Positions 1,819 through 33,677 of a DNA stretch of 64,000 bases are shown here, one piece after another (the stretch's first letter is position 1; the number at the start of each line of letters is the position of its first letter). The position numbers and the translations under genes were made by a program. Origin of the DNA: Peptoniphilus ovalis (GTDB lineage: Bacteria; Bacillota; Clostridia; Tissierellales; Peptoniphilaceae); the NCBI RefSeq assembly GCF_018919265.1, contig NZ_JAHLQO010000006.1:62001-126000 (forward strand), written 5' to 3'. The notes under the pieces are model-generated. The model saw only the letters and a list, made by a program, of their open reading frames with translations, was not told where the DNA came from and searched no databases.

Positions 1819-3525
1819 ATGAAATTAGTAATCGCAGAAAAACCAAGTGTTGCAGCATCAATAGCAAAAGTTATAGGAGCAAAAAATAGAAATAATGGAT
1901 ATTATGAGGGAAACGGATATATTGTTTCATGGTGTGTTGGACATTTAGTACAAATGGCAAATCCTGATGTGTATGATGAAAGATATAAGAAGTGGAGAAT
2001 TGAAGATTTACCTATTATCCCAAAAGAATACAAGTATGAGGTAACGAAGACAACTAAAAAACAGTTTAATATTCTTAAAAGGCTAATGAATAGTAATGAA
2101 GTTGACACCATTATTAATGCTTGTGATGCTGGTAGAGAAGGAGAAGCTATCTTTAGACTTGTATATATGATGGCAAATTGTAAGAAGAAAATGAAACGTC
2201 TTTGGATTTCCTCAATGGAAGACTCTTCCATAAAAGAAGGATTTAGCAACTTAAAAGATGGAAGTAATTATGATAATCTTTTTGATTCAGCTAAGGCTCG
2301 TGCCATAGCTGATTGGCTTGTTGGAATGAACATAAGTAGACTTTACTCCTGTCTATATAATGAAAATTATAGTGTAGGCAGAGTACAAACACCAACTTTA
2401 TCAATGATTGTGAATAGAGATGATGAGATAAATAGTTTTAAAAAAGAAAAATATTATACAGTGGAGATTTCTATGAATGGATTTACACTGTCGACAGATA
2501 GAATTGATGACAAGATAGTGGCAGAGCAGCTTAAAAATTTAATCGGAGAAAAAATTGAAATAACCGATGTAATTAAAAAAGAAAAGATTACAAAGCCTAA
2601 TCTGCCCTTTGATCTAACAACACTTCAAAGAGAATGTAATAAGTATTTTGGATACAGTGCAAAACAAACCCTAGATTATGCCCAAAGCCTGTATGAAAAG
2701 AAGTATATTACCTATCCACGAACAGATTCAAGATATTTGACAGTAGACATGATAGAAAGCACTGTAAATAATATTATAGGGAAAAATGATTTTGACACAG
2801 AAAGAATTAAGGTAGTTTTTAATTCTGAAAAAGTTACAGATCATCATGCAATAATTCCAACGATAAGTTCATTAAATAAGGATATTTCAAATCTCCCGGA
2901 AAGTGAAGCCAAAGTATATAGACTTATAACAAATAAACTCTATGCAAGTTTTGGATATCCTCTTGTAGAAAATACAACAAAGATAGTGGCTGAATTTGAC
3001 GGGTTTGAATTTATAAACACTTATAAAATAATTGCTGAAGAAGGATTTACAAAATATTTAGAAGAATATAAATCAAAGAAGAAAGAAGATATACAACTTC
3101 CTGATGTAAAAATAGGAGATTTTTTATATATTGAAAATAAAGATATAAAAGAGAAGTATACAAATCCACCTAAACACTTCACTGAAGACACACTCTTAAA
3201 AGCAATGGAAATAGCTGGGAATGATGAATTAGTTAAGAATGTTGAAGTTGAGAGAAAAGGACTTGGTACTCCTGCTACAAGAGCGGGAATAATAGAAAAT
3301 TTGATATACAAAGGTTATATAAAAAGAGAAAAGAAAAACCTAATATCAACTAGAAAGGGATTAAACCTAGTGACTATAGTTATAGATGAGTTTAAATCTC
3401 CAAAGACAACAGCAAAATGGGAAATGAGATTAAGTGATATAGCAAAGGGTAAGGAATATAAAGAGAATTTTTTAAAAGAAATTGAAGAAGAAATAGAAAA
3501 TACTATAGGTAAATATTATAAGTAA
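1819..3525 (+). CDS. topB: DNA topoisomerase III (ICE type)
   Basis: This 568-residue type IA topoisomerase carries an N-terminal Toprim domain (MKLVIAEKPSVAASIAKVIG) with DAGREGE at residues 103-109. The catalytic tyrosine motif ITYPRTDSRY is present, with Tyr at residue 299. The late motif LGTPATRAGIIENL is also present. The protein is shorter than chromosomal TopB enzymes and ends without obvious C-terminal zinc ribbons, as is usual for topoisomerases carried by Tn916/CTn-like ICEs. These are thought to relax or decatenate DNA during transfer or replication of the element. AGGAGG precedes ATG 1819. A terminator upstream suggests an independent transcript. Confidence 0.95.
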   Translation: MKLVIAEKPSVAASIAKVIGAKNRNNGYYEGNGYIVSWCVGHLVQMANPDVYDERYKKWRIEDLPIIPKEYKYEVTKTTKKQFNILKRLMNSNEVDTIINACDAGREGEAIFRLVYMMANCKKKMKRLWISSMEDSSIKEGFSNLKDGSNYDNLFDSAKARAIADWLVGMNISRLYSCLYNENYSVGRVQTPTLSMIVNRDDEINSFKKEKYYTVEISMNGFTLSTDRIDDKIVAEQLKNLIGEKIEITDVIKKEKITKPNLPFDLTTLQRECNKYFGYSAKQTLDYAQSLYEKKYITYPRTDSRYLTVDMIESTVNNIIGKNDFDTERIKVVFNSEKVTDHHAIIPTISSLNKDISNLPESEAKVYRLITNKLYASFGYPLVENTTKIVAEFDGFEFINTYKIIAEEGFTKYLEEYKSKKKEDIQLPDVKIGDFLYIENKDIKEKYTNPPKHFTEDTLLKAMEIAGNDELVKNVEVERKGLGTPATRAGIIENLIYKGYIKREKKNLISTRKGLNLVTIVIDEFKSPKTTAKWEMRLSDIAKGKEYKENFLKEIEEEIENTIGKYYK

Positions 3526-3577
3526 ATTGATTATAAAAACTTGAATATAATTATAGGAATGAAGAAAGGAATGATTT

Positions 3578-3652
3578 ATGAAAGAAATAGGATATAATAT
3601 AAGTGATAAAAGAGTAGGCATTAGGAAATTTGCTTATTTGACATTACTATAA
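3578..3652 (+). other. Possible 24-codon leader peptide after topB
   Basis: An ATG at 3578, eight bases after AAAGGA, opens a 24-codon frame ending TAA at 3650-3652. It is followed by an unusually GC-rich, structured stretch (3678-3752) and then a terminator-like hairpin (3765-3793). The order short peptide, folded RNA, terminator resembles an attenuator leader. Nothing in the peptide points to a particular ligand. It could equally be the broken start of a lost gene. Confidence 0.3.
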
Positions 3653-3677
3653 ATATACGTTATACTCTTATCAGATA

Positions 3678-3752
3678 AAGATGGTGTCCCGCTACCGTTA
3701 AAGGTGGAGCATTAAAGAAGGTGTATCACTACCTACATCCCAAAGGTAAAAT
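3678..3752 (+). ncRNA. GC-rich structured RNA candidate
   Basis: This stretch is markedly richer in G and C than its surroundings. It can fold into several short helices: GCTACC with GGTGGAGC, GTG-TAT-CAC, and GGTGT pairing with ACATC. It encodes no good ORF and lies between a short leader ORF and a terminator hairpin. I do not recognise a known riboswitch class; the call rests on composition and hand-folded pairings only. Confidence 0.25.
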
Positions 3753-3764
3753 ATTAAAGCAAAC

Positions 3765-3793
3765 AGAGAGGTTAAAACCTTTCTATTTTTTTA
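3765..3793 (+). terminator. Terminator or attenuator hairpin
   Basis: AGAGAGGTT pairs with AACCTTTCT around a two-base loop, followed by a run of T residues. It lies after the structured stretch at 3678-3752 and before the ORF ending at 4193. Confidence 0.55.
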
Positions 3794-3866
3794 TTCCAAT
3801 TTCTTCTGCAAAGGAAAACGCAAAAAATGAAAGAATGTTTCTGATGAGCATTTTTTAATTTATGAA

Positions 3867-4193
3867 GTGATCGATGATAGTATTACTATAGATGGAGATA
3901 TTTACAGATATTATTCTGATAAAGAAAAAATGCACATATTATCTATATTGGATATTAAGAAAATGATTCCTGTACCGGCTGATTGTTATGAAAGAATTGA
4001 ATTTAATGAGCTTGAGGATATCAGATATAAAGACTTATTTCAAAAAGAATACGCTTTTTGTTTAAAGGTAAAAACAAAGGTCTTGATAAAGGTAGAAAAA
4101 ATATACCAAAAGCAAAAGAAAACAGGAATTATAAGAAGAGCAAATTGTAATTTTTCAGAGCTAGAAAAAGCAATGTTGGACTGGAAGCAATAG
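3867..4193 (+). CDS. Hypothetical ICE protein, start uncertain
   Basis: This 108-residue frame is read here from GTG 3867, but coding continues upstream without a stop to 3831 and there is no ribosome-binding site before the GTG. A nearby ATG at 3827 is in a different frame and hits a stop after five codons. A one-base frameshift near 3835-3845 would join that ATG to this frame, so the gene may be broken at its 5' end or use an unusual start. The protein is mixed alpha/beta in character (SITIDGDIYRYYSDKEKMHI) and basic toward its C-terminus. I do not recognise it. It sits between topB and the giant helicase gene, where other CTn elements carry small DUF proteins. Confidence 0.45.
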   Translation: MIDDSITIDGDIYRYYSDKEKMHILSILDIKKMIPVPADCYERIEFNELEDIRYKDLFQKEYAFCLKVKTKVLIKVEKIYQKQKKTGIIRRANCNFSELEKAMLDWKQ

Positions 4194-4210
4194 GATAAAG
4201 GCAGTTAAAG

Positions 4211-4245
4211 CGATTAGAAAAGAAAAAAATTCTAATCGTTTTTTT
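4211..4245 (+). terminator. Intrinsic terminator
   Basis: CGATTAGAA (4211-4219) pairs perfectly with TTCTAATCG (4230-4238), followed by seven T residues. It closes the transcription unit containing the hypothetical gene ending at 4193. Confidence 0.85.
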
Positions 4246-4386
4246 AATGCAATAAAAAGATAGCGTAAATGACATTTTAAAGTTATCTTTTGCTTACAGA
4301 AATTAAAAAAATAGAAAGAAATAAAGTTTAATAAATAAAGGTATAAAATATAGTACATTTTTATCACTATAAAGAGGAGGGATAAA

Positions 4387-7300
4387 ATGCCAAGATATGA
4401 TATAGTAGATTTAAGCAGATCAATCTATCTTGCAAAAGAAGAATTTAAGAAAGATATAAAAAAATATGAGGAATATTTAAAGGTATCAGGCAATAATTAT
4501 AAGTATCCATATATACATCAAATATCTATATACAATATGGATCCAAAAGCAACAGCCTGTGCAGAATTTGATTATTGGAAAAGTATAGGTAGAAGCGTTA
4601 AAAGAGGCGAAAAAGGAATACCACTTTTAGATATAGATAGTGGAAGGATAAAATATATCTTCGACATAAGGCAAACAGTAAGTATTAATCATAATATTTC
4701 TGAGGTAAAGTTATGGAAATATGATAGCAAAAAGCATTTAAACTTACTAGATGAACTGATAGATAAGTTTAAAGAAAAAGATAGTAAGCTTCTATTAAGC
4801 CAAGAAGATAAAATTGATGCCTTAGTAGAAAGTAATGTTAGAGGAAAATTCAATAAAATTTTAGAAAGTCTATCTGATGAAAGTTTAAAAAGCATTCAAA
4901 AGGTAGACCTTTTTAATTTGTTAAAAGAATCCGTAAAAATTTCCATAAGCGAGAGAATGGAGGTCTCATATCAGCTAAAAGAAGAAAACTTATCTTTACT
5001 GTCTAAAATATCAAGTTCGGACATAGACAAAGTATTAAATATAAGTGCTAATATAAGTAAAAATATCTTACTTGATTTGGGAAGTGAAATAAAAAGATTA
5101 GAAATTTTAGAGAAAATTCAAGAAAGAAAAGATTTGGAGCAGACAAAAGAGCTTAAGGAGCGTTATAATAAATTAAGTTCTGATATAAACGGTGAAATAA
5201 ATTTTAAAGGAGGCTTGGAAGATGAAAGAGAAATTAACATTGGCAGGCAAGGAATACCTCATGGAGGAGGGGATTTACACACCAATCGTCAAGGAGAATT
5301 CCTTCGAGAGACAGGGAGGGACATACAAGATGGAAGAATTGGAGGAAGGCATGGAAGTCCTAATACCCAATATGGCAATTCCCAAGGAAATAGATTTAAA
5401 GAAACTCAACAGATGGGGAAGGATGAGATTGAACTTTCTCAAGGAGAACAAAGAAGAGGATTATCAGATAATGTATTTGCAAGGGATATTGATGGATCAT
5501 CTTTTATCAAAGGAAAAAGAGATAGAGGACTTTATCACGAGGGAAGAAGTCAAAATGATGGAAACTTGGGGGCTGACAGAAGAACTGAAAGAAGAGGACT
5601 ATCTGAAATATCTGAGATTGAAGAAGAACATGGATATGACCCTGCAAGAAATAGGGGAAAGGGAGATAATCTTAATCTAAAAAATGAGGAAGTAGAGTCT
5701 ACTTCCTTTTTTTCTGCTAAAAATCAGGGAGAGCAAATATCCTTCTCAAATCCAATAAGTCAAAGAGAAATAGATACATTTTTAATTCATGGAGGAAACC
5801 ATGAAGATGGAAGATTGGCAGTAATAGCAGAATTTTCTAAGGGTAAATCTTTAGAAGAACAGGCAAACTTTTTGAAAGAAATATATAGGGGAGCCAATGG
5901 TCTTGAAATTGAAGGAAGAAAGATATCTGCATGGTTTGGAAAGGAAGGAGCAATTTTTAAAGATGGAGATGAGGCAAGATATAGAAAAGGGCAAATAGTT
6001 TCTTGGAAACATTTAGCTAATAATATTAATGATTTATTAAATAGAGGAGAATTTGCTAGCAACGTGGAGGTTATAGAAAGTGCCACATATGAAAGAGAAA
6101 AAATAGCAGAAAAATTATTGTATTTAAAGAGAGATCTTTCTGATGAAACTAAGGACAGATATTTAGCAATTCTTAATGATATAAAAGGAAGAGGCTTCCC
6201 AGATGAAAAAGAAAATCTCGGGAAAAAACTTGAAGATAAAAATTTTATAAATAAACTCAGAAAAGAATACGAGGTATTTTTAGAAGAATATAAGATTAAT
6301 CCTGATATTTTAAGATTTCATCATTATAAATTATCTAGAATCTATAATGATATCAATGATTTAGAAATAGAAAGAAAATTATATAGGTCAAATTTAAAGG
6401 ATATTGCACCTATTCAGAGTTTTATAACACAAGATGAAATAGATGAAAGCCTAAAAAGAGGAAGCGGGTTTTCTGATGGAAAGAAAAGAATATATGAATT
6501 TTTTACTGAAAAGCATGATTTAAAAGAACAAGCAGATTTCTTGAAAAATGAATATGGCGTAGGTGGAAGTTCTCATGCACTATCTGCTGCAAGAGAAAGT
6601 GGTGAGTGGCACGATGCGAAGGGAATAAAATATAATAAAGGTAATGCAAAAGAAATACTACTATCTTGGTCTAATGTTGCAAGAAGAATTAATGACCTTA
6701 TTAAAAAGAATATATATATAGATGAAGAAAGTTTTGAAGAAAATAGGGAGAAAAAAACAGATCAGGAAATAAATAAAACAGAAAAAGAAAGCCAGGAGTA
6801 TATAAATTATCAAGATGATTTGCCTCCAACTGATAATGATGTATATATAGAAAGAACAAATAATAGTTCTATATATTATTATCAAGGACAGTCTGTAGCA
6901 AGTATAGGTGATGATGGAAAACTTATCATTTATGATGAATTTATACCAAACTTTTTAAAAGAAGAACTATATTCCATAGCCTTTGAAAAACAATTAGATA
7001 TACCCTTAGACCAGTTAGACGATGGAATTATTCTTGAGGGAATATATGACACTTTTTATATTAAAGAAAAGGAAGAAATAGAAGGAAGAGAATATTACCT
7101 TTTAGAAAGTCAAAGTCGATATGATGATATTCCAAATATTGTAGTTAATTCTAACAAAGAAGTTATAGATGATGATATAGTAAATGGTTTTGAAGAATTT
7201 AAGGAATTTTATCCTAATAAAAATAAAGAGAATATAGGTTTTGATTTAGATAGCCATAGAAAAGATGATTATTGGATAATTGAGTTTAATGAGGGTTCAA

Positions 7301-10300
7301 GTCTAATAGAAAAAGATTATGCAGGACAAAGGCTGACTAAAGAACTATTAGATGAAATAAGGGAAATAGATGAAAAGATAAGACTTCATAATAAGACCTT
7401 AGGAGAAGATGAATATGGGCAGATGACTGATAAGTGGGAGGGGTATTCCAAATTCTATTTTAACCATATAGTAGATGGGAAAATAGTTGATCACTATAAG
7501 ATAGACATAGGTGATGGAAATGAGATCAACCAAAGAGACTTTGAATTTCTTTATGAACAAATAGGAAAAAGTCAGATAGAACTTAATCAAACTATAGAAG
7601 GAAATAAGATAGATGAAAAAATAATTTCAATAAATCAAATTGAAGATAGAATTTTTGATGTATTAGTTAAGGATAAAGTTTTAGAAAATGAAATTATAAA
7701 GGCAAGAGAAAACTTAGGAAATAATACCTTAGCAAGTTTTAACTCTGTATTCCAAAGAGAATATGCAAAAATCATGAGAGAAGTTGCCGATGAGCAGGGA
7801 AATCTTCCAGATGATATGAAGTCAATAGATAAGGTTAAAGAATTAGGCATTAGAATAGAACATAGATATAGAGAATATTTAAATAATTCACTTGAAAACA
7901 ATATAGAAGATGATAAGGAGATACTCTCTATAAAAGTGGGAGATATAGTTAAAACAGAGGATAATAAATATTTAAAAATAAAAAATATTTCCAGTGGATA
8001 TGATAATAACCATAATCAAATAACATATTATTCATATGATGCCTATTTTGATAAGGACTTAAAACTATTCTCACATTCCTTTAAAGAAAGCGATTTAAAA
8101 GCTTTAGAAGTATTAAGAAATGAAGTAGAAGAAAAATTAACAAAAGAGATTGTAGAAGATAAAATAGCAGTAAAAGTAGGAATTTATTACGCTTTAGTAA
8201 ATAAAGAGAAAACAAAGGATATAGAACTAGAAGAGACAGGAATTAGAGTTTATCCAAGAAAGGAAAACTCACAAGGAAAGGTCTATACTTTATATAAAGG
8301 GAAATCTTTTGAAGATAGCAAAAAAATAGACAGTTTGTTTGATGAAATTACTGCCAAAATGAAAGAATCAAACCTTACAAATTTAAATGATGTATTAGAA
8401 TTGGAAAGGGAAGGTTTATTTGAAATTACTGATGATAAAGTTACAAAATTTGAGGAAGGCTATGATATAGATGTTCAAAGCTTTAATCAGCAATTTCCAG
8501 ATTATTATAATGATATATATGTTTTTAATAAAAATCTTGAAATCAGTGGAGCATATCAAAATTTAGCACATATAAATGAAGAAAATAAAATTACTTTTAA
8601 TATAAATTTATCGCAAGAAGAAAAATCAAAAATTGAAGAAATAAGAGATAAAAAAGAAGTTCTTTCCAAGTTAATAGATAAGGATATTAAAGAAAAAAGA
8701 GAATACTATTTTGATCCTCAAAATGAAGAATACTTACTACTATCAAAGAAAATAGAAGAAGGACTATTAAAAATCCCAGATAGTATTAAGGAGACAATCG
8801 ATGGAAAAGGAGGCTTTGATGTAGAGCTAATCTTAGATATAAAAGAAAAAACTCTAAGACAAAATTTACGATACAATGGATATATTTTAAATTCTAATCA
8901 AGCTATAAAATATAAAAGTTATAAGGACATATTAAATAACTTACCTTATTTACTCGATGACAAACATAGAGAAGTGCTTTTAAATGGATATTTAAATCAG
9001 CAGATAGAAAATGATAGAACAAGGCAAGAAGAAAATCCATTTAAAGAAGGTATGAGTGTTAGATACAAAGGAAAAGAATACACTATAACCGCCATTAACG
9101 ATGCTACAAGTCCTAAAACTATAGAACTAGAAGATAGCACAGGACTAATGAATGGTTTTATTACCGGAAGCGAAACAATTCTTTTTTATGACTACAAAGA
9201 TCTTGATTTAGAAGTTATAAAAAAAGAGGAATTAATTCCGTTAGAAATAGAAGATTATAGTCTTTTAGGATTACCAGTTCAATTTAGAAATAAGGAATAT
9301 TTAATTAAAGAAAATGAATTTAATGAAGCTGGAATGGGTAGATTAGCTTTAAGTACAATAGATAAGAATGTTATTACTGAAGTAATATATAGTAGAGAAA
9401 GACCTGTTTCTAATATCTTTGTAAGAAAGGAAGATTTAGAAGAATATAAATCTAGTGAAAAAGATAAATTAAGCAAAAAACAATCTATCGATAAAGAGGA
9501 ATTAGTAGAACAAATTAGCTTTGAAGATATTGATAATAATAACGAAGAAAAAGTTAAAAAAGAAAATTCAAGGCTCTTATATAAAAGCCTTGATGTAATA
9601 AATAATAAATCTTCTCTTGTTGCTGATCAGTTTATAGTAAGTGTTGATAATGAAAAGGAAGAATTTTTAGTATATAGTTCATCTAATCCAAAAAATCATA
9701 GGGAATTTACTCTACCTTTTTCTTACCTCAAAGGAATTGACAAAATTGACGGAGATGGTAATGCATTAAAATTAACCACTCATAGAAAAGAAACTATTGA
9801 TAAGAAGTTAGAAGAATATAAGGAATGGAAAGAAAATAATGATTTAATAAGGACTGATAGAGAAAATATAGAAGGGGTTTCTGAAGTTTCTTTAGAAAAC
9901 TATAAAATTATTAATGAAGAAGAAAACCTACCACCTTCACAGAGATTAAAAAACAACATTGAAGCTATAAATGTCTTAAAAGCTTTAGAAAAAGAAAATA
10001 GAAGTGCAAGAAAAGATGAACAGGAAATTTTAGCAAAGTATATAGGCTGGGGAGGACTTTCTGATGTATTTGATGAAGAAAAGGAAGGTCAATGGCTTGA
10101 TGCAAGAAACTTTTTAAAAGAAAATCTAACTGGGGAAGAATATAATAGGGCAAGAGAATCAACCTTAACGGCTTTTTATACGCCGAAAGTAGTTATAGAC
10201 TCTATCTATGAAAGTCTTTCTAATCTTGGCTTTGAAAAAGGAAATATATTAGAACCAAGTGCTGGGACAGGTAGATTTATAGGAAATCTACCTGAAGAAA

Positions 10301-13300
10301 TGAAAGAGTCAAACTTTTATGGAGTTGAATTAGATAGGATTAGTGGACAAATTGCTAAAGAACTTTACCCTAATGCCAATATACAAATAAAAGGATTTGA
10401 AGAAACCAATTTTTCTAATAACCTATTTGATGTGGCCATAGGAAATATTCCTTTTGGAGAATTTAAAGTAGCAGATCGTGAGTATGAAAGAAATAACTTT
10501 CTAATTCACGATTATTTTTTTGCTAAAACTTTAGATAAGGTTAGAGATGGCGGCATCATTGCATTTATAACATCTTCAGGAACAATGGATAAAAAAAGTG
10601 AAGATGTTAGAAGATATATATCAGAAAGGGCGGAGTTCTTAGGAGCAATACGACTACCTAATAGAACATTTAAAGGAGTAGCAGGTACAGAAGTAACTTC
10701 AGATATAATCTTTTTAAAAAAGAGAGATAGGCTATTAAAGATAGATGAAGACTGGATAAAGCTAGACAAAGATGCAAAAGGACTAATATATAATAAATAC
10801 TTTGTAGATAATCCTCAGATGGTAATAGGGACTATGGAAGAAATACCGTCAAGATTTGGGACAAGCCTTGCATGTATTGAAAATAAAGATATTTCTTTAG
10901 AAGAAGGACTAAAAAAAGCCATTAAAAATATTCAAGGTAGGTATGAAGAAGCTCAAATAAATGATGATTTAGGAGAAGAAACAATACCAGCTGATGATAG
11001 AGTTAAAAACTATTCTTTTGCTTTAGTGGATGATGAAATATATTTTAGAGAAAATTCAATTATGCAAAAAATATCCTTAAATGAAAAGGATAAAGATAAG
11101 GTAAAAGAATATTTAAGATTAAATGAAAGTCTAAGGAAAGTTATAACCTATCAAAGAGAAGACTATTCAGATGAAGAGATAAAAAAAGAACAAGAAAATC
11201 TAAATAAATTCTACGATGATTTCAATAGCAAACATGGAAGACTAAATTCAAAAACCAATAAAAAGTTATTTAGAGAAGATGCCAATTTTTCTTTAATTTC
11301 GACTTTGGAAAAATTAGATAAAGAAGGCAATTTTATAGGAAAATCTGATATCTTTAACAAGAGAACTATAAAAAAAGCTGTCATAATAGACCATACAGAT
11401 AGGGCAATAGATGCTCTGGTACTCTCTATTAGTCAAAAAGGGAAAATAAATTTAGATTATATGGAAGAATTGACAGGAAAAACAAGAGATAAATTAATAG
11501 AAGAATTAAAGGGAGAAATATTTTTAAATTTAGATTCCTTTGAACCTAATGATATAAATCCATTTAAGTCTGCTAAAGAGTTAGGAGATTTTTCAAGACC
11601 TTATGTAAGTGCTGATGAATATTTGTCAGGAAATATAAGAGATAAAATTGAAGTTGTAGACTCTTATATTAAAAACATCGAAAAAGAGTTAGGAAAGGAA
11701 GTAAATCTAGAGGATAGTAAACTCTTAAAAAAAGAATTAGAAGAGTTACATTTTCAAAAAGCAAAGCTAGTGGAAGTTATGCCTAAAGCACTAGATGCAA
11801 GTGAGATTACAGTTAGAATGGGTGCAACATGGATACCGGAACAAGATTACAAAAAATTTATGTTTGATTTGTTGAAAACACCAGTTTCATCAAGGTGGAA
11901 TATAGATATTAAGTATTCTGACTTTACAGGAGAATATAGAGTTGAAGGAAAAAGCTCTGATAGGGACAATGACCTTGCTTCTTTTACCTATGGTACAAAT
12001 AGGGTAAATGCCTACAAATTGATAGAAGATACTTTAAATTTAAGAGATACTAAGGTATTTGACCAAGTAGAAGACAGTGATGGAAAGAAAAAATCTGTGC
12101 TTAATCAAAAAGAAACAATGCTTGCAAGAAGTAAGCAAGAGATTATAAAAGAAGAATTTAAAAGCTGGATATTTGATGATGTGGAAAGAAGAAATAGATT
12201 AGTAGAAGATTATAACGAAAGATTCAATTCCATAAGACAAAGGGAATATGATGGATCTAATCTTACTTTTGAAGGAATGAATCCTGAAATAGAATTAAGA
12301 GCACATCAAAAAGATGCCATAGCAAGAGGTTTGTTTGGTGGAAATACTTTACTTGCCCATGAAGTAGGAGCAGGAAAAACCTTTGAAATGATAGGTATAG
12401 CCATGGAGTCAAAAAGACTTGGAATGAGTAATAAGTCAATGTTTGTTGTTCCTAACCACATTGTAGAGCAATTTGGAAGAGAATTTAATGAACTTTATCC
12501 AGGAGCTAATGTATTATGTGCTACAGAAAAAGACTTCACACCAGATAGACGAAAAAGATTTTGTAGTCGTATTGCTACAGGAAGTTTTGATGCTGTTATT
12601 ATAGGGCACAGTCAATTTGAAAAAATTCCTATATCAAAAGAAAGACAAGAATATGAATTGCAAGGTCAAATTGATGAAATAATTGACTATATAGATGAAT
12701 ATAAAAGAGAAAGGGATCAAAGATTTACTGTAAAGCAATTAGAAAAAACAAAGAAAAAATTAGAGACAAAGTTAGAAAAATTAAATGCTGATTATAAGAA
12801 AGATGACGTTGTAACCTTTGAGGAACTGGGAGTAGATAAGTTATTTGTAGATGAAGCCCACGCATACAAAAACCTCTATCTATTTTCTAAAATGAGGAAT
12901 GTAGCAGGAATTACTTCTACAGATTCACAAAAATCATCAGATATGCTTATGAAATGCCGCTATATGGATGAAATTACTAATAATAAAGGATTAGTATTTG
13001 CCACAGGTACACCAGTAAGCAACAGTATGGCTGAACTTTATACCATGCAGAGATATTTACAGTATGATGAATTAAAAAAGATGAAATTGCAACATTTCGA
13101 TTCTTGGGCGTCTACTTTTGGAGAAACAATAACGGCAATAGAATTAAATCCTGAGGGTAATGGTTATAGGAGCAAAACCAGATTTGCAAAATTTTATAAT
13201 CTTCCTGAACTTATGAATACTGTAAAAGGATTTATGGATATTAAAACAGCTGATGTTTTAAATCTTCCTACACCAATTGCCCATTATGAAACTATAAAAA

Positions 13301-15318
13301 CAAAGCCTACCGAAGAACAAAAAGAAATTCTTGAAACTTTTTCCGAGAGAGCAGATAAGGTTCGTGATAAGCAGGTAGATTCAAGTGTTGATAATATGCT
13401 ATTAATAACAAATGATGGAAAGAAGATGGCATTAGATCAAAGATTAATCAATCCTTTACTTCCTGATGATCCTAATAGTAAGGTGAATACCTGTATAAAA
13501 AATGTATTTAGCATTTGGGATAAATATAAAGATAAAAAATCTGCTCAATTAATATTTTGTGATATGTCTACACCAAGTAGTGATTTTAATATCTATGATG
13601 ATATTAAAACAAAACTTATAGATATGGGAGTACCTGAAAATGAAATAGAATTTATTCATAAGGCAAAAAACAATATGGAAAAAGACGCTATCTTTGATAA
13701 GGTAAGAAAGGGAGAAATAAGAGTCTTACTTGGTTCAACACAGAAAATGGGAGCAGGTACTAATGCCCAAGACAAACTAATTGCAATTCACGATCTTGAT
13801 ATACCATGGAGACCTGCTGATCTTTCTCAAAGGGCAGGCAGGATTGTGAGGCAGGGAAATGAGAATAAGGAAGTCCATATATTTAGATATGTAACAGAAA
13901 ATACTTTTGATGCCTACCTATTCCAAACCTTAGAGAATAAACAAAAATATATTTCCCAAATTATGACGTCAAAGACTCCTGTAAGAGTTGCAGAAGATGT
14001 AGACGAAGCCACATTAAACTATGCCGAAATCAAAGCTCTTGCAACAGGAAATCCATTAATAAAGGAGAAGATGGACCTTGATGTTGAAGTTTCTAAACTT
14101 AAAATGCTAGAGTCCAATTTTAAATCAAATCTTTACAAGCTGGAAGATAAAGTAGTTAAATTTTATCCAAAGGAAATAGAAAGATTAAAAGAAAGGATAG
14201 AGAACTTAAAGGAAGATATTAAAAATGTTGAGCCTTATGGAGAAGTAGATAAAAATTTAAAAGAAGATAATAAATTTACCTCTCTAATTATTGACGGAAA
14301 GAAGTATATAGATAAGAAAATAGCTGGAGAGTTTTTGTTGAACAAAATTAAGGGAGTTAAAATATATAGGGAAATGGATAAAGATGGAGAAAAAATAGGT
14401 GAATATAGAAATTTTGATTTATCCATAAAATATGATTCTTTTTTCAATAAATATAACTTTATATTAAAAGGTAAGGGAGAATATAGAGGAGAGTTTGGAA
14501 CAGATGAAATAGGTAATATAACAAGAATGGATAATGTATTAGATAAATTACCAGAAAGATTAGAAAATACAATTTCAAAACTAAAAGATACAGAAGAGCA
14601 ATTTCAAACAGCCAAAATTGAAATACAAAAGACATTTCCACAAGCTGAACTTTTAAAGGATAAGACATTAAGACTTGCAGAAGTTAATAATTTACTAGAT
14701 ATGGGAAAAACTGAAGATATACGCCAAGATAATCCATTACTAGAGGAAGTAAAGGAAGAATTGATAGACTTCCTTAACAGAGAATATGATGAAGAAAACA
14801 GGTTAGAGGACTTTGATACTATATTTCCTGACTTAACAGATATAGGAATAGCTTATACAACTACACCAGATGAAAAACATGAGATACAAATCAGTTTAGA
14901 TTTGATAAATTACAAGATGAACACCTATGTAGATAAGAACCTAATTGACAGCTTTCAATACACCTATGATCCATTAGATGCAAGTGATTTAAAAGAGCTA
15001 GTACAGATAAAGACATCTATTGGATTTTGGGATTTTAGTGAGCTTGTATCAGTAAATGAAGAAAAACTGAGAGAAGTAATGGGACTTGAGATAGATGATG
15101 ATGGCAACTTCTATGATCCATTATCTAAAGATATGGATTTAGACGGAATAATAGATAGAAATGATGCTGATTTTAGAGATAGTAAAGTGCAGGAAATAGG
15201 AGATTTTGAAATGAAAGAAAAAACATCTATTATGGATAAATTAAAGGGATATAGGGAGAATTTAGCAGTAAATAATAATATAAAAGAAATAAATAATAGT
15301 GAACCATGTGGCAGATAA
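4387..15318 (+). CDS. Giant polyvalent ICE protein: ArdC-like / N6-methylase-like / SNF2 helicase
   Basis: The gene encodes 3643 residues after AGAGGAGG. Residues 1-110 resemble the ArdC-type ssDNA-binding domain ([20 protein letters not shown], then GEKGIPLLD). Residues 280-430 are a low-complexity Gly/Arg stretch that overlaps a nested gene. Two repeated LPD-type modules follow at about 465-560 and 680-790, each ending in a W-x-x-(V/L)A-x-x-IN(D/N)L pattern. A methylase-like domain has EPSAGTGRF near residue 1955 and NIPF near 2019, where active N6-methylases have NPPY/F. The SNF2 helicase has HEVGAGKTF near 2657, VDEAHAYKN near 2821 and [10 protein letters not shown] near 3147. Such proteins are the largest gene of many CTn elements and are thought to protect or process incoming DNA. 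Methylase activity is doubtful because of the NIPF motif. Confidence 0.9.
5222..5680 (+). CDS. tnpV: TnpV-like protein encoded inside the giant helicase gene in another frame
   Basis: This 152-residue frame lies wholly inside the 4387-15318 gene, shifted by one base. AAAGGAGG sits eight bases before ATG 5222, a better site than many genes here have. From about residue 62 the protein shows the pattern I know for transposon protein TnpV (PF14198): [19 protein letters not shown], a tyrosine/leucine helix, [10 protein letters not shown], and an end in [10 protein letters not shown]. The first 45 residues contain two 'template' peptides like those seen at TnpV N-termini. The host frame here is a Gly/Arg-rich linker, which would tolerate overprinting. 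TnpV is found in Tn4451-like and CTn elements; its function is unknown. The family match is from memory, but the motif agreement extends over the whole C-terminal half. Confidence 0.75.
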
Positions 15319-20507: not shown

Positions 20508-21189
20508 AGAATATGAGATAAGAAATACTAAAGATTTTCTTACTTTAGAAAATTTAAAAGCTAAATTATCTAATAATGATTTAATACTAATTAATGCTTA
20601 TACAGACAAATTATTAGAAGAAAAATTACTTTCTTATTTAACTGAAGAGGAGATAATAAAATCAAAGGATTATAAATCAGAAATAGCAAAAATTAATTAT
20701 CTAGTATCAAGGGCAATACTTAATTTAGCCCTAAAAGGTTTACTAGAAAAAGAAATTGATGATTTAACAGTCAAAAGAGATAAAAATAATAAACCTTATT
20801 TAGAAAATACTCTAGGAATAAAGTTTAACATCTCACACACTGAAGGCTTAGTCTTGTTAGCTTTTTCTAAAAGAGAAGTAGGGGTAGATATTGAAAAAAT
20901 AAATTATAAATTTGAGTTTAAGGATATATTAGAAAACTGTTTTACTAAAGATGAAATAACAAATATAGATAACAATATAATAAATTTCTATAGGTATTGG
21001 ACTGCAAAAGAAGCCTATCTTAAATGTGATGGGATTGGTCTTATAAGAAATTTAAAAGAGATTGAAATAATTTCTTTTGAAAATGAATTTATAAAAATTA
21101 ATGATAGTAAAAGGAATACAATAAGCAGATTAAAGTCATTGAACCATGACGACAAATATGTCGGGGCAATATGCTTGGAGGAGAATTAA
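20497..21189 (+). CDS. 4'-phosphopantetheinyl transferase, Sfp type
   Basis: The 230-residue protein shows the Sfp-superfamily motifs: FNISHTEGLV, GVDIE (Asp131) and FYRYWTAKEAYLKCDGIG (Trp168). It would transfer phosphopantetheine from CoA to the aryl-carrier and two peptidyl-carrier domains encoded downstream. The gene overlaps the thioesterase gene at its start and the AMP-ligase start codon at its end (TAATG), so it is tightly coupled in the operon. Its length is normal for the family. Confidence 0.92.
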   Translation: MKIEEYEIRNTKDFLTLENLKAKLSNNDLILINAYTDKLLEEKLLSYLTEEEIIKSKDYKSEIAKINYLVSRAILNLALKGLLEKEIDDLTVKRDKNNKPYLENTLGIKFNISHTEGLVLLAFSKREVGVDIEKINYKFEFKDILENCFTKDEITNIDNNIINFYRYWTAKEAYLKCDGIGLIRNLKEIEIISFENEFIKINDSKRNTISRLKSLNHDDKYVGAICLEEN

Positions 21190-22781
21190 TGAACATTGAA
21201 TTAAAAGAAAAATTGGAAAAATTTTATGATGAACAAGTATGGCCGCATATGACTTTAGGAGAATTTATTGAAGATTGTGCTAAAAAATATAGGGATAAGA
21301 TTGCCTTAGTAGATGGAGTCGTTGAACTTTCATATCAAGAATTAAATAGAAAAGCTTGCCATTATGCCAATGGTTTATTGAAAGCTGGATTTAAAAAGGG
21401 GGATAGAATCGTTCTTCAACTTCCTAATTGTCACGAATTTGTTATTATCCTTTTTGCCATGTTTAAGATTGGTGTGATTCCAGTATTATCACTTCCAGCT
21501 CATAGGAAAAATGAAATAAAGGGAATATTAGAAAAATCAGGGGCAAAAGCATATATAGCTAAGGATAAATATCTTGGCTTTTCATATGTTGATATGATAA
21601 GAGAAGTAAGAGAAGAATTAAATATAGATTTTGAAGTTTATATTCTTGGAGATAATCAAGGATATAAAAATTTTTACAAACTCAATGATAAAGATTATTC
21701 ATCTCAGTATATAGATATTGATTATAAAGAGATGGCTCTACTCATGCTATCGAGTGGAACAACGGGAAGTCCTAAAATGATACCAATGAAACATTGCGAA
21801 TTAATTTGTTCGGCTATAGCAATAGGAAGTGCCCTAAATTATTCAGATGCTACAATATACTTGATGGCATTATCTCTATCTCATAAATTTGTTTTATCTT
21901 ATCCAGGGATAATAGGAGTATTTTATCATGGAGCTAAGTGTGTAATATCTATGACACCAAGTCCTGACGAAATAATTTACAATATAGAAGAGCATAATAT
22001 TAGTACAATGGCTTTAGTTCCAGCTTTAGCAAGTTTATGTATGGATTTTTTAGAGTTCGAAAAAATTAATATTTCATCTTTAAAAATTATACAAGTAGGT
22101 GGATCAGTTTTAGAATATAACAAAGCATTTGAAATCGAAAAGAGTTTTGGGTGTATTATTTCACAATTATATGGAATGACTGAAGGACTAGTTATGTGTA
22201 CGAGATTTGATGATAACATGGACACCAGGCTTAATACTCAGGGCAAACCTGTATCTATTGGTGATAGTGTAAAAATAGTAGATGAGTTTGGAGAAGAAGT
22301 AAATACTGGTGATTATGGTGAATTATTAATAAGGGGGCCGTATACAATGTATGAGTATTACGGTGGAATGAATGATGTTAATAACTCTATATTAGACAAA
22401 GAATTATACTTTAGAACTGGAGATAGAGCTAGAAAGTTATCAAACGAAAACTATCAAATAGCTGGTAGGGTTAAAGAAATGATAATTAAAGGCGGAGAAA
22501 AAATTATTCCTTCTGAATTAGAAAACCTATTGCTAAAGAATAAAAAGATATCAGAAGTTCAAGTAGTCGGAGTTCCTGATGAAATATTAGGAGAAAAAAT
22601 TTGCGTATGTATACTAGAAAAAGACAAAAATTTGATGTTTTCTGAAATCGTTCAAACACTTAAAGAAACTGGTATAGCAGAATTTAAGATTCCAGATTGT
22701 ATGAAGATAATTGATAATTGGCCGCTAACTGCTACGGGAAAAATAGATAGAAAAAGGCTAATAGAGAATTATGGAAATTAG
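21189..22781 (+). CDS. Aryl-acid AMP ligase (YbtE/DhbE-like) loading the NRPS
   Basis: ATG 21189 follows GGAGGAG and overlaps the previous stop; an upstream in-frame ATG at 21171 is less likely. The 530-residue ANL enzyme has SSGTTGSPK near residue 188, YGMTEG, FRTGDRAR and the C-terminal lysine motif TATGKIDRKRL. The N-terminus (FYDEQVWPHMTLGEFIEDCA) is of the YbtE/EntE stand-alone type. The aryl-pocket motif reads SHKFVLSYPG (His232, Lys233, Tyr238). DhbE has HNYPLSSPG there, with Asn235 binding the 2-hydroxyl, and salicylate enzymes keep that Asn. Lys and a bulky Tyr suggest a different acid or a rearranged pocket. It should adenylate the starter acid and load it on the N-terminal carrier domain of the next protein. 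Confidence 0.88.
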   Translation: MNIELKEKLEKFYDEQVWPHMTLGEFIEDCAKKYRDKIALVDGVVELSYQELNRKACHYANGLLKAGFKKGDRIVLQLPNCHEFVIILFAMFKIGVIPVLSLPAHRKNEIKGILEKSGAKAYIAKDKYLGFSYVDMIREVREELNIDFEVYILGDNQGYKNFYKLNDKDYSSQYIDIDYKEMALLMLSSGTTGSPKMIPMKHCELICSAIAIGSALNYSDATIYLMALSLSHKFVLSYPGIIGVFYHGAKCVISMTPSPDEIIYNIEEHNISTMALVPALASLCMDFLEFEKINISSLKIIQVGGSVLEYNKAFEIEKSFGCIISQLYGMTEGLVMCTRFDDNMDTRLNTQGKPVSIGDSVKIVDEFGEEVNTGDYGELLIRGPYTMYEYYGGMNDVNNSILDKELYFRTGDRARKLSNENYQIAGRVKEMIIKGGEKIIPSELENLLLKNKKISEVQVVGVPDEILGEKICVCILEKDKNLMFSEIVQTLKETGIAEFKIPDCMKIIDNWPLTATGKIDRKRLIENYGN

Positions 22782-22804
22782 AATATTTGAGAGGAGAAGA
22801 AAGA

Positions 22805-25800
22805 ATGCCTGATTTATACGATTTATTAAATGAAATTAAAATTCAAGTTAAAAGTTATATAAATAAAGATGATATAAAAAATCATGATAATTTAATAGAG
22901 TTGGGAATAACTTCAGTAAATGTTATGGGAATAATAAGTAAATTAAGAAGGCACAATATTAATGTATCGTTTTCTAAATTAATGGAAAAGCCATGTTTTG
23001 CTGAATGGGAAGTTGCAATAAAAAATGCTCGTAAATTAAATAATCCAAATAATTCTAATAAAAAAGTCATAGGAAACAAACTGTTTGAATTAACTGATAT
23101 TCAGTATGCTTATCTTGTAGGTGGTCATGATAATCAAATACAAGGAGGAGTAGGTTGCCACGCCTATATTGAAATAGATGGAAAAGAAATAGATTGTAAA
23201 AGATTGAATGATGCATGGAATAAACTTCAATATAGACATCCAATGCTTAGAGCAAGGTTCACAGAGGATGGAAAACAAGAAATATTAGATAAACCTTTTG
23301 GCGAAGAAATTGAAGTTTTTGATTTATCTAATTTAGATGAAGAAGATACCAAAATTAGACTAGATGAAATACGAGAAAATTTATCTCATAGAAAACTCAG
23401 AGTAAAAATGGGAGAAGTCGCAGGATTAAAACTTGCAAATCTGTCACAGAATAGAAATAAAATTTTCTTTGATTTAGATTTACTTGTTGCCGATGTCATG
23501 AGTATGAGTATTCTTTTGAAAGAATTAGGAGAATCGTATTTAGGAAAAGAATTAGACAATCTAAACAATTATACCTTTAAAGATTATATAAACAATCTTG
23601 AAGTAGACTCTGAAATTTATAAAAAAGACCAACAGTTTTGGAAAGAAAAAATAGACTCATTTGAGATAGAAAGACCTAATTTACCATTAAAGAAAGCTCC
23701 TGAACAAATTAAAGAAACGAGATTTACTAGAAGGAAACGAGTTATTGAAAAAGATAAATGGAGCAAAATAAAAGAGCTTGCAGCAAGCTATAAATCTACA
23801 CCATCAATGGTTTTATTAACTGCGTATGCTTTAATTCTAGAAAGATGGACTAACCAAGATAAGTTTTTTATAAACTTACCATTATTTAATAGAGATCTTT
23901 CAAATGAAAACTTAAAAGCTATGGTAGCAGATTTTACAAATATCTTATTAGTAGAGCATGAAAGAAAAAATGATACTTCTTTTCTAGAAACTTTGAATAG
24001 AATAAGCAAAACCTTTATAGAAAATGCCAGCCATTCATATTATAGTGGAGTTCAAGTTCAAAGAGATATATCAAAATCACAGGGTACAAGCCTTAATGTA
24101 GCACCTGTAGTTTTTGCGTGCAACATAGACTATCCAATAGAAACTGAAATTTCAAGGAAAGCTTTGGGCAAAATTACATATATGGTATCACAAACTCCAG
24201 GAGTATGGTTAGATTTCCAATCATATATAAAAGATGGAGATTTAGTATTATGCTGGGACAGTGTAGATGAACTTTTCCCTGAAAATATGTTAGATGACAT
24301 GTTAAATTCTTTAGAAGAACAACTTTTAAGACTAACAGAAAAGGAAAATTGGGAAAGCAAATTTGATGTACTATCAGAAAATCAAAAACTAGCAAGAGAA
24401 AAAGAGCTTAAATCAATTCTTCCATTAAACTTTCCTGATGAGAGATTATATGATGGATTTATAAAAAATGTAAAAGAAAATCCAAACAAAATTGCAATTA
24501 TAGATTCAGAATCTAAAGAAGAAATATCTTATATAGACTTATATGAAAAATCCTTAAATGTAGCAGGATATTTAAAGGAAAATGGAATAAAAAAGGGAGA
24601 CTATGTAGGCATTACTCTCCCAAGATCAAGCAAGCAAATTTACGCTATATTTGGAATACTTTTTTCTGGAGCGGCATATGTTGCTGTTGGAATAAATCAG
24701 CCTAGCGAAAGACGAACTAAAATATACGAACAAATTGGTATAAAGTTTGTCATCAGTGAAAATAAAACAATAGAAAATTGCAAACTAGATACGGGAGAAG
24801 TTTCTTTAATTGACTTAGACAAAGCTATAGACAAATCCTTAGGTCTTGATAAGCCTATAGAAGTAAGTCCTTTTGACTCAGCCTATATAATAATGACATC
24901 AGGTACTACAGGAGTGCCAAAGGGTGTTGAGATTATGCATACAAGTGCCATTAATACTATTAATGATTTAAATGAAAAATATTCTATTAATTCAAATGAT
25001 ACGTTACTTATGGTATCAGCAATAGACTTTGACTTATCAGTATATGATATTTTTGGAATACTTGGTGTAGGTGGAACTCTAATAACAACTAATGAAGATA
25101 ATTATCGTAATCCTGATGAGTGGATTAGAATTATTGAAAAATATAAGGTAAGTGTGTGGGACTCTGTACCTATACTTTTTGACATGCTCGTAACTATGGC
25201 AGAGAGTGAAAAGAAAAACTTACCACTTAGAATTGTTATGTTATCGGGAGATTGGATAGCAAAAGACTTACCAGGAAGATTTTATAAGATAAGCGAAAAA
25301 GAAAATTCTATAGTTGTTGCTATGGGTGGTGCAACGGAAGCTTCAATCTGGTCAAATTATTTAAATGTGCCGAGACAAATACCTAAAGATTGGATTTCCA
25401 TTCCTTATGGAAGACCACTTAAAAACCAAGTCTATAGAGTAGTAGATGAATTAGGTAGAATATGCCCTAATTATGTTAAGGGAGAACTTCTAATTGGTGG
25501 AGTTGGTGTTGCTAAATGCTACCATGGAGATGAAGAACTAACTAATAGAAAGTATTTTGAAGAAGATGGACTTAGATGGTATAGAACTGGAGATAATGGA
25601 AGATTTTGGAATGATGGTACTATTGAATTTCTTGGAAGGAAAGATACTCAAGTAAAAATTAAAGGACATAGAATTGAACTTGGTGAGGTTGAGTCTGTAC
25701 TTAAAGGATTTCCTGATATCATTGATTGCTGTGCGAGCGTTATAAATTGTCATAATTCAATGAAAATTGGATTATATATTGTATGTAATAGCAATAACTT

Positions 25801-26245
25801 CAATATAAATAATTTAAAAGAAAGATTAGATAGAATTCTTCCAAGGTTTATGATTCCAGAGGAATATTATATTTGTAATAGCAGAAAAATTACAAAAAAT
25901 GGCAAACTTGATCGAGAAGAGATTAAAAAAATAATAGTAAACGAATCGTTAAAAGTTGAAAAAGTTGTCCAAAACAACTTAAACCCCAAATTAACCGATA
26001 CAGAAGTTTACTTAATAAATTTATTTAAAAATAAATTAAGTATAACAGATATAAGGGTAGAGGACAATTTTTTTAAATTGGGAGGGGATAGTTTAGCAGC
26101 AATATCTATTATTAGTGAAATAAATTCGGATTTTATGTTGAAGGAAAAGATTTCTATAAATAAGATTTTTAAATTTCCAACTATTAAACAATTATCAAAG
26201 GAAATTGACACCTTGATTCAAGATGTAGAAATCTACGAAATTTAA
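22805..26245 (+). CDS. NRPS ArCP-Cy-A(Cys)-PCP, PchE/HMWP2-like
   Basis: ATG 22805 follows GGAGAAG; an in-frame TTG at 22787 overlaps the ribosome-binding site. The 1146-residue protein starts with an aryl-carrier domain (ELGITSVNVMG, Ser37). A heterocyclisation domain follows, with DLLVADVMS at residues 225-233 in place of the condensation HHxxxDG. The adenylation domain has TSGTTGVPKG near 698, FDLSVYDIFG near 741, GGATEASIWS near 840 and YRTGDNGRF near 925. The C-terminal PCP has LGGDSL (Ser1096). FDLSVYDIFG and SVWDSVP are typical of cysteine-activating domains paired with Cy domains. It should make an aryl-thiazoline thioester. There is no epimerase-like insertion such as PchE has. Confidence 0.93.
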   Translation: MPDLYDLLNEIKIQVKSYINKDDIKNHDNLIELGITSVNVMGIISKLRRHNINVSFSKLMEKPCFAEWEVAIKNARKLNNPNNSNKKVIGNKLFELTDIQYAYLVGGHDNQIQGGVGCHAYIEIDGKEIDCKRLNDAWNKLQYRHPMLRARFTEDGKQEILDKPFGEEIEVFDLSNLDEEDTKIRLDEIRENLSHRKLRVKMGEVAGLKLANLSQNRNKIFFDLDLLVADVMSMSILLKELGESYLGKELDNLNNYTFKDYINNLEVDSEIYKKDQQFWKEKIDSFEIERPNLPLKKAPEQIKETRFTRRKRVIEKDKWSKIKELAASYKSTPSMVLLTAYALILERWTNQDKFFINLPLFNRDLSNENLKAMVADFTNILLVEHERKNDTSFLETLNRISKTFIENASHSYYSGVQVQRDISKSQGTSLNVAPVVFACNIDYPIETEISRKALGKITYMVSQTPGVWLDFQSYIKDGDLVLCWDSVDELFPENMLDDMLNSLEEQLLRLTEKENWESKFDVLSENQKLAREKELKSILPLNFPDERLYDGFIKNVKENPNKIAIIDSESKEEISYIDLYEKSLNVAGYLKENGIKKGDYVGITLPRSSKQIYAIFGILFSGAAYVAVGINQPSERRTKIYEQIGIKFVISENKTIENCKLDTGEVSLIDLDKAIDKSLGLDKPIEVSPFDSAYIIMTSGTTGVPKGVEIMHTSAINTINDLNEKYSINSNDTLLMVSAIDFDLSVYDIFGILGVGGTLITTNEDNYRNPDEWIRIIEKYKVSVWDSVPILFDMLVTMAESEKKNLPLRIVMLSGDWIAKDLPGRFYKISEKENSIVVAMGGATEASIWSNYLNVPRQIPKDWISIPYGRPLKNQVYRVVDELGRICPNYVKGELLIGGVGVAKCYHGDEELTNRKYFEEDGLRWYRTGDNGRFWNDGTIEFLGRKDTQVKIKGHRIELGEVESVLKGFPDIIDCCASVINCHNSMKIGLYIVCNSNNFNINNLKERLDRILPRFMIPEEYYICNSRKITKNGKLDREEIKKIIVNESLKVEKVVQNNLNPKLTDTEVYLINLFKNKLSITDIRVEDNFFKLGGDSLAAISIISEINSDFMLKEKISINKIFKFPTIKQLSKEIDTLIQDVEIYEI

Positions 26246-26264
26246 TTATATATTGGAGGATAAC

Positions 26265-31775: not shown

Positions 31776-31823
31776 TCTATTTAAATAATAATATAAAAAT
31801 AAGCTTTAAGTTAGGAGGTTAAA

Positions 31824-32903: not shown

Positions 32904-33648
32904 TTTAAATATTGTTGGAGACAAAACAAACAAAAAGATTTTGCTTATTCATGGTGTGGGATTTAGTTATGCAAATTGTTTTAAGAGTATTATTGCTAAA
33001 CTCAGTAAAACATATTGTATTATATCCCCAGAATTACCTGGACATGGAAACAATACACTTGGAAGGTTAAGTTCAGTAGAGGATGTTGCTGAAGATTTAG
33101 AAAAATCATTGATGCTTGAAGATATAGTAAATATAGAATGTGCATATGGGATTTCATTAGGAGCAAGTATTGCATTACAAATTTCTTTGAATAAGAAAAT
33201 AAATGTTAATAACTTAATTATCGATGGTGGTCAGTATGAGAGCATGGGAGAAATGATTGAACCATTTTCAAAAGTTATGGCAGAACAATTTGATAATTTA
33301 AAAAACGGAATTCATTTAATAGAAGATGTGAGAAAAGGAATGGGTTATGGAGACAATGATGTTATAACTTTGAAACATATGATGTATCCTTTTATTACAA
33401 GAGATACATTATACCAAGCTTTTAAGATGGCATATAAATATGATATTAAAAATAAAGTTGAAAAGCTTACAATGCCTGTTTGTATAATGTTTGGCAAAAA
33501 AGAAACTTATGCAAGCAAATATGTCGATTTAATCAGGAGTAAATCCATAAGTGATGTAAGAGTTGTTAGTTTTGATAATGTAGGACATGCTGAAGTATTA
33601 GGATTAAATCCAGAGCTAATTATAAATGAAATTGAAAAAGTCTTATAG
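32887..33648 (+). CDS. Alpha/beta-hydrolase of the metallophore operon
   Basis: ATG 32887 follows AAGGGG and overlaps the reductase end; the in-frame ATG at 32860 lacks a good site. The 253-residue protein has ILLIHGVGFSYANCF with an oxyanion motif, PELPGHG, the nucleophile elbow GISLGA, and a final histidine in NVGHAEVLG. These are complete catalytic features of the alpha/beta-hydrolase fold. It might hydrolyse the imported metallophore, proofread intermediates, or act in a late tailoring step. Nothing in the sequence separates these. Confidence 0.8.
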   Translation: MKVNYNLNIVGDKTNKKILLIHGVGFSYANCFKSIIAKLSKTYCIISPELPGHGNNTLGRLSSVEDVAEDLEKSLMLEDIVNIECAYGISLGASIALQISLNKKINVNNLIIDGGQYESMGEMIEPFSKVMAEQFDNLKNGIHLIEDVRKGMGYGDNDVITLKHMMYPFITRDTLYQAFKMAYKYDIKNKVEKLTMPVCIMFGKKETYASKYVDLIRSKSISDVRVVSFDNVGHAEVLGLNPELIINEIEKVL

Positions 33649-33677
33649 GATACATTAATATATTGGAGGGGATAATT

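Follow-up and report, generated by a model that had tools for sequence, protein, structure and literature searches.

The tnpV gene of this Peptoniphilus ovalis locus lies wholly inside a giant gene for a polyvalent-like protein, on the same strand and in the +1 frame, and this nested arrangement, which recurs in Clostridia and Bacilli, is beyond chance. The locus was analysed within a window of 64,000 nucleotides (contig NZ_JAHLQO010000006.1, positions 62,001 to 126,000), to which the coordinates below refer. Both frames appear to be kept by selection, and the reading that we prefer, and judge probable from the sequence comparisons described here, is that a ribosome-binding site, tnpV and a terminator form a self-contained unit within the giant gene, the full-length product of which would be made via read-through. 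The features of the locus are as follows.

4387..15318, plus strand: outer giant gene of 3643 codons, encoding an N-terminal domain, a linker over tnpV, LPD18, an Eco57I-type methylase and an SNF2 helicase
4387..5199, plus strand: conserved N-terminal domain of the outer protein (alignment A2), ArdC-N-like below the cut-off
5140..5169, plus strand: promoter-like site (CAGACA, 18 nt, TATAAT) upstream of tnpV, suggestive
5206..5213, plus strand: Shine-Dalgarno sequence AAAGGAGG of tnpV, 8 nt ahead of the ATG
5221..5680, plus strand: cysteine-free, acidic, low-complexity outer linker over tnpV (outer residues about 279-431)
5222..5680, plus strand: nested tnpV, an ORF with an ATG start encoding 152 aa, with a Pfam match to PF14198
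5681..5713, plus strand: intrinsic-terminator-like hairpin and U-tract (MFE -12.9), directly 3' of the tnpV stop and inside the outer ORF

The nested ORF is a genuine member of the TnpV family. PF14198 matched the encoded protein with an E-value of 1.3e-17 and 64.3 bits (curated cut-off 27), and the alignment extends over protein residues 45-150 and profile positions 7-111 of 111, so that the protein covers nearly the whole profile of the family known from Tn4451/Tn4453 and from Tn6104-Tn6106 of C. difficile. The C. difficile tnpV genes are listed as ORFs of their own (PMC3158075), unlike the present gene, which is nested in the +1 frame and followed by a terminator-like hairpin. The original prediction, made from the letters of the window, had described a frame of 152 residues with its own ribosome-binding site inside the giant gene, in another frame, and an outer gene that remains open and of low complexity across it; each of these points was borne out, the outer stretch being rich in Gly, Arg, Asp, Glu and Ser. 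The family had also been named correctly, but the fit is not limited to the C-terminal half, as about 70% of the protein matches PF14198. As a consequence of the +1 frame, position 1 of a TnpV codon is position 2 of an outer codon. With the nested protein as query, NCBIfam (which may hold no TnpV model) gave no family at E 0.01, the PDB sequence search returned a single match, to a designed protein, with E 0.18, and an AlphaFold2 model made with 12 close relatives had a pLDDT of 45. For Tn4451, homology with lambda Xis led to the postulate of an Xis-like role in excision (PMC3158075), and an accessory role of TnpV in excision is a guess in print.

The outer protein resembles the conjugative polyvalent proteins in that it joins LPD18 (E 1.2e-21, above the cut-off), an Eco57I-type methylase (28.2 bits, cut-off 25.3) and an SNF2 helicase (SNF2-rel_dom 42.2 bits, cut-off 24.9; Helicase_C 36.8 bits, cut-off 23.5) to an ArdC-N-like N-terminal domain, the latter matching ArdcN with E 0.026 and 15.2 bits (curated cut-off 22.6). 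Combinations of ArdC-N, LPD, DNA methylase and SNF2 domains have been described for this class of proteins in a paper whose main text contains neither 'tnpv' nor 'overlap' (PMC5512222). Upstream of the outer gene there is a topoisomerase gene, and downstream of it there are a relaxase gene and a gene that gave a weak match to SSB, under the cut-off. An apparent biosynthetic cargo cluster, seen in the subset of ORFs scanned, occupies window positions 21171-39306, 3' of the relaxase, and includes non-ribosomal peptide synthetase domains (AMP-binding, condensation, carrier), a CbiQ-like transporter and an ABC transporter, while Rfam matches at gathering score in the window were a T-box leader (55426-55659) and a pemK RNA (43380-43444). 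An L-S/T-L-F-type motif, often preceded by Q, recurs in several outer proteins just 3' of the overlap (e.g. at L162 and L317) and is also found in the linker of an outer gene that lacks TnpV, L249. We take this motif to be similar to a beta-clamp-binding motif.

Of 101 relatives, 41 carry PF14198; the family is also present in 88 of 249 genomes from the order and in 140 of the 391 genomes sampled from the class. At the level of the phylum, alignment A1 recovered TnpV in 20 of the 299 genomes sampled. Among loci L001-L209, most of which were located via TnpV, a whole tnpV inside a same-strand ORF (limit 200 or 150 codons) was always in the +1 frame. A route without TnpV as bait was provided by searching with the outer N-terminal domain, using alignment A2, itself derived from nested loci; matches, partial ones included, were obtained in 66 of 245 genomes from the class and in 23 of 299 from the phylum. 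When distinct N-domains were counted as those reaching profile position 190 or further (n = 149), TnpV adjoined the N-domain in the +1 frame in 142. The original prediction had proposed to follow the shifted frame through homologues, and a majority of homologues with stops in it was not seen. The outer frame in turn was open through tnpV in 139 of the 142; in two, the N-domain ORF ends before or inside tnpV, and one is cut by the end of the DNA. TnpV was likewise in +1 in 78 of the 84 N-domains that N-domain searches recovered, in 43 of the 49 recovered solely in this manner (42 of the 43 open throughout, one cut by the DNA end) and, upon clustering at 70% with nine further places not yet included, in 67 of 69 clusters.

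The TnpV-less N-domains among the 49 are L351-L353, which are weakly matching ORFs of 301-345 codons, L350, where the contig ends right after the N-domain, and L249 (the same as gene L280) and L251, which have a short linker instead, L251 reaching the contig edge. The seventh exception in the set of 149 is L107, where TnpV is in another frame and is fused with the N-domain as one ORF; this ORF (L107:6569-7756, minus strand) has 396 codons, the remaining outer gene being in the other frame. TnpV is also missing from shorter ArdC-N-like proteins and from a divergent 2354-codon ORF (L340) over the 1.5 kb 3' of the N-domain that was examined.

The N-domain search further matched seven plasmid and 15 phage-collection records, from which all seven plasmid records and five of the phage-collection records, these being unverified and unannotated faecal scaffolds, were examined. 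All 11 distinct full N-domains in them were accompanied by TnpV in +1 with an open outer frame, and in a twelfth record (L318) a frame change divides the N-domain into two parts, the second of which has TnpV in +1. Named carriers are Cohnella herbarum and Enterococcus wangshanyuanii (Bacilli), both as plasmids, and Monoglobus and Ruminococcus albus (Clostridia). A tblastn search of plasmids and phages with the window's TnpV protein gave no matches, and scanning viral_contigs with single TnpVs revealed no viral relatives.

Several copies were observed that are closely related to each other. At 24 of the 26 loci L031-L056, assigned by their record titles to species of nine genera, the nested TnpVs are 95-100% identical, which we read as recent spread of the element. 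Six near-identical copies (L017, L033, L035, L041, L051 and L053) have an open TnpV frame and an outer ORF that is truncated or missing. The genome of the window also carries a second, divergent giant gene with a nested TnpV of its own (L209; G000:C3:363915-364283).

Selection on the two frames was assessed on 45 non-redundant nested loci, with TnpVs less than 80% identical; ORFs shorter than 100 aa or containing X were excluded beforehand, and five nested loci with less than 900 nt of outer ORF after tnpV lie outside the 45. Since an open outer frame defines this class, the openness of 45 out of 45 loci follows from the definition, and the unconditioned count is the 42 of 43 in the set found by N-domain only. 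Synonymous shuffling of tnpV at these loci introduced a mean of 2.59 stops into the outer frame, for which log10 P adds up to about -71.5 over the loci (per-locus P floored at 0.001, shared ancestry not corrected for), and recoding tnpV with the codon usage of the outer gene introduced a mean of 7.54. The corresponding frame of 70 other TnpVs held 6.84 stops on average, these 70 including L060, which was filed as 'alone' but belongs with the nested loci, as it is counted in the TnpV tree; its frame is open through tnpV and has a stop between the N-domain and tnpV. The explanation that the nested frame is a chance ORF or a false family match is excluded by the PF14198 score, the stop-shuffle test and the N-domain counts, and hardly deserves further credence.

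The way in which the overlap diverges was followed in 27 disjoint pairs of 45-93% identity, pairs with a flank identity below 0.45 having been dropped. Differences in the overlap averaged 0.212, 0.147 and 0.355 at TnpV positions 1, 2 and 3, and differences in the flanks averaged 0.253, 0.183 and 0.444 at outer positions 1, 2 and 3. The fastest sites were thus TnpV position 3 in the overlap and outer position 3 in the flanks, in 27 of 27 pairs each, and the slowest site in the overlap was TnpV position 2, which is outer position 3, in 24 of 27. Purifying selection beyond that on the outer frame, which the original prediction had suggested looking for, is what these fast TnpV third positions point to, and the comparison shows the TnpV frame as apparently selected for its amino-acid sequence. 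Protein identity in the overlap was higher for TnpV (mean 0.72) than for the outer protein (mean 0.54) in all 27 pairs, and equal constraint on the outer frame at the sequence level was rejected on these grounds. At four-fold sites in 28 disjoint pairs, 223 of 811 differed in TnpV and 1557 of 4688 in the outer flank, a slowdown that is seen only below 85% TnpV identity and is absent above.

The outer frame is instead marked by its composition. When the TnpV protein, the set of codons and the openness of the outer frame were kept constant, 34.7 +/- 4.1 Cys were expected among the 4725 outer residues that overlap tnpV, and none was present; these residues further included 964 Asp and Glu (860 expected), 108 Lys (218 expected) and 633 residues of the CFILMVWY group (710 expected); Ile and Leu are in slight excess and Arg is slightly low, which departs from this simple picture. 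The corresponding frame of other TnpVs held 243 Cys compared to 184 expected. By this comparison, the outer segment is shown as one that seems to be selected as an open, cysteine-free and acidic linker.

It could be argued that the outer frame is untranslated across tnpV, the N-domain and the helicase being separate genes and the open frame a coincidence or a recent fusion. This would fit the gene table of the Monoglobus plasmid (NZ_OY725736), in which TnpV is listed at 430693-431025 and a 'SNF2-related protein' starts far 3' of it, from 432942, with the outer ORF open from 429831; it would also fit the broken or absent outer ORF in the six near-identical copies and the two TnpV-bearing outer genes out of 142 in which the N-domain ORF ends before or inside tnpV. 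Against it stand the 139 of 142 that are open through tnpV, an outer composition that is cysteine-free and acid-rich beyond stop-free shuffles, and the average of 6.84 stops in other TnpVs, and we regard this explanation as very improbable. The tables compared are those distributed by PLSDB, which are incomplete, for four annotated plasmid records (L310, L313, L314 and L315). The Cohnella table (NZ_CP051681) lists TnpV and omits the outer gene, the frame of which is also broken at a later point, and the Enterococcus (NZ_CP021876) and R. albus (NC_014825) tables list the outer gene and omit TnpV, so that in each of the four one gene of the pair is missing or the outer gene is cut short.

The nested gene is accompanied by signals of its own. 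A Shine-Dalgarno sequence of at least 5 nt is present ahead of the tnpV start at 40 of the 45 loci, compared to 154 of 1442 matched control sets and to 9.9 of 45 expected under recoding that is synonymous for the outer protein; five of the 45 lack one. A hairpin with a U-tract and an MFE of -8 kcal/mol or lower, positioned within -25 to +110 of the tnpV stop, follows nested tnpV in 40 of 45 loci as opposed to 69 of 1435 windows taken as controls from the outer genes of these loci, and in nine other 135-nt offsets around tnpV it was found in 0-5 of 45. The remaining five loci have no hairpin at -8 kcal/mol, and an earlier fixed-rule scan had given 21 of 45 nested loci and 25 of 931 controls. 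The amino acids of the outer protein do not explain the hairpin, since outer-synonymous recoding predicted 4.2 and 41 of 45 were observed with that version of the window. The stems are of unrelated sequence at several loci, for example L205, L161, L009 and L194. A further set of 33 nested loci, which share less than 80% identity among themselves and with the first set and were drawn from 115 candidate rows from which TnpVs with less than 110 nt after the stop were left out, gave the hairpin in 27 and the Shine-Dalgarno sequence in 29. By contrast, only 21 of 68 standalone tnpVs were followed by a hairpin, which makes it commoner after nested tnpV and indicates that a terminator is no fixed part of every tnpV; in the linker of the TnpV-less outer gene L249, no hairpin was found at -8 kcal/mol (best -5.1). 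Comparison with these controls shows that both the Shine-Dalgarno sequence and the predicted hairpin exceed what the outer protein or chance would require, and the conserved terminator-like hairpin is new here, going beyond the original prediction, as does the wide distribution of the nested arrangement. A promoter score of at least 12 was reached upstream of tnpV in 17 of 45 loci and in 2.1% of control windows, five nested loci having no scorable site, but an exact TATAAT was observed 17 times with 11.0 expected from the outer amino acids; the internal promoter is counted as suggestive, as its enrichment partly follows from the outer protein.

With a hairpin inside the giant ORF, synthesis of the full outer protein would need read-through or antitermination. 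According to the reading that we prefer, the ribosome-binding site, tnpV and the terminator would act together as a compact gene, possibly including a promoter of its own, placed between the N-terminal ArdC-like domain and the downstream domains of the outer protein. TnpV would be translated by internal initiation, and transcripts would mostly end at the hairpin past tnpV, giving by default a short RNA from which TnpV is made. The full-length polyvalent protein, in which the overlap would serve as a flexible linker, would arise only when RNA polymerase reads through or when a ribosome in the outer frame covers the hairpin. Read-through might take the form of processive antitermination, as in Gram-positive conjugation operons, where internal intrinsic terminators are overridden by antitermination (PMC8955417, PMC11658703). 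Intrinsic terminators have likewise been described in the transfer operons of pLS20, with conAn (PMC8955417), and of Tn916, where T1-T3 occur together with canT and T3 lies within a gene, orf15 (PMC11658703); the hairpin predicted here differs from those systems in its position, past the end of an entire nested gene and within one very long ORF. Rfam revealed no antitermination element over the window, and its three matches at 3500-6200 were sub-threshold and chance-like.

The hairpin may alternatively be an RNA-stability or ribosome-pausing element and no terminator. The evidence is all computational, and a predicted internal terminator in traE of pIP501 was non-functional in vivo (PMC8955417); nevertheless, the U-tract lies immediately 3' of the stem in 40 of 45 loci, and the position is tied to the tnpV stop even where the stems are unrelated in sequence, which makes this explanation rather unlikely. 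A more specific proposal, which we put forward tentatively and as a possibility that is somewhat improbable, is that promoter, Shine-Dalgarno sequence, tnpV and terminator together constitute a built-in attenuator of the giant gene. Ribosomes on TnpV would then stop just short of the hairpin and leave it free, whereas outer-frame ribosomes or an antitermination-modified polymerase would pass it and allow the polyvalent protein to be made.

As to which frame came first, we lean towards capture of tnpV by the outer gene, the outer segment having the look of a secondary reading constrained in composition only. In its full form, in which an older self-contained mobile-element gene was captured within the polyvalent gene and the outer frame opened across it later, this scenario is in our view about evenly poised between right and wrong. 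It agrees with a nested unit equipped with its own Shine-Dalgarno sequence and terminator-like hairpin, with TnpV being a Pfam family that also occurs alone in 69 of 120 non-redundant TnpVs, with the apparent selection of the outer overlap residues for composition, with the lack of TnpV in the shorter ArdC-N-like proteins and near the N-domain of L340, and with S. suis IMEs carrying tnpV that insert into snf2 genes (PMC9815147). On the other hand, no pre-capture state occurs among the loci examined, and the hairpin follows so few standalone tnpVs. The TnpV-less L249 grouped, as L280, among TnpV-bearing genes in a quick tree of outer genes and thus probably represents loss of TnpV, with an SH-aLRT of only 89. 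Codon usage also pointed the other way, as the fit of the overlap to the usage of the outer gene was +0.043 for the outer frame and -0.050 for TnpV, which fitted better in 15 of 45 loci. This comparison favours the outer frame as the native one, but a confounding factor is that T-ending codons make up only 10.7% of nested tnpV, compared to 25.3% of standalone tnpV.

The converse, that TnpV arose de novo by overprinting in the disordered linker of the giant gene and that standalone TnpVs are escapees, draws on the same codon-usage result, with the same confounding, and on the TnpV tree. In this unrooted tree of 118 rows, from which L105 and L164 had been dropped beforehand, six changes separate nested from standalone, at least five of them forced by starred branches, compared to about 38.6 with shuffled labels. 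The standalone L170, L183 and L202 fall within nested clades; when aligned locally with the DNA of nested kin, they match best within tnpV, and their outer frames contain seven, three and one stops, respectively. These three look like escapees from nested loci, and the suggestion that TnpVs found elsewhere may come from such a locus is supported for them. A de novo origin has against it the lower conservation of the outer sequence, relative to TnpV, across the overlap in all 27 pairs, the existence of outer genes without the segment (L249 and L251), and a single nested/standalone split not being rejected when 51 nested and the three embedded standalone rows were held together (p-AU 0.171), and we consider it doubtful. 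Overprinting as originally proposed is supported in part, in that both frames look real and selected, a de novo origin of either frame within the other being no more than a possibility. Scanning one neighbour of each of 10 standalone tnpVs gave no common function, the neighbours including several metabolic enzymes, a Mob_Pre relaxase, a RepA_N initiator and a weak PcfJ match.

The arrangement is not reported in the portions of the open-access literature consulted on TnpV, overlapping genes in conjugative elements, polyvalent proteins and ICE terminators. As in the overlapping genes of E. coli O157:H7 (PMC4683798, PMC5960689, PMC7103648, PMC6294744), one stretch of DNA encodes two proteins; unlike those cases, at least three of which are antisense and which belong to one species, the present overlap is same-strand and family-wide, and the inner protein belongs to a known Pfam family. 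These reported overlaps are mostly antisense and from one species, and this same-strand, very widespread and statistically clean case is a potential model for two proteins and a transcription signal on shared DNA, with natural escapees, in the form of standalone copies, and losses available for comparison. For annotation, it is of significance that each of the four plasmid gene tables examined presents the overlapping pair incompletely. A working hairpin would point to a way for mobile elements to silence a very large transfer protein until it is needed, and if the attenuator proposal is true, one DNA segment, conserved across the mobile elements of Bacillota, would encode a small protein and a disordered linker and also act as the switch that decides between the two proteins.
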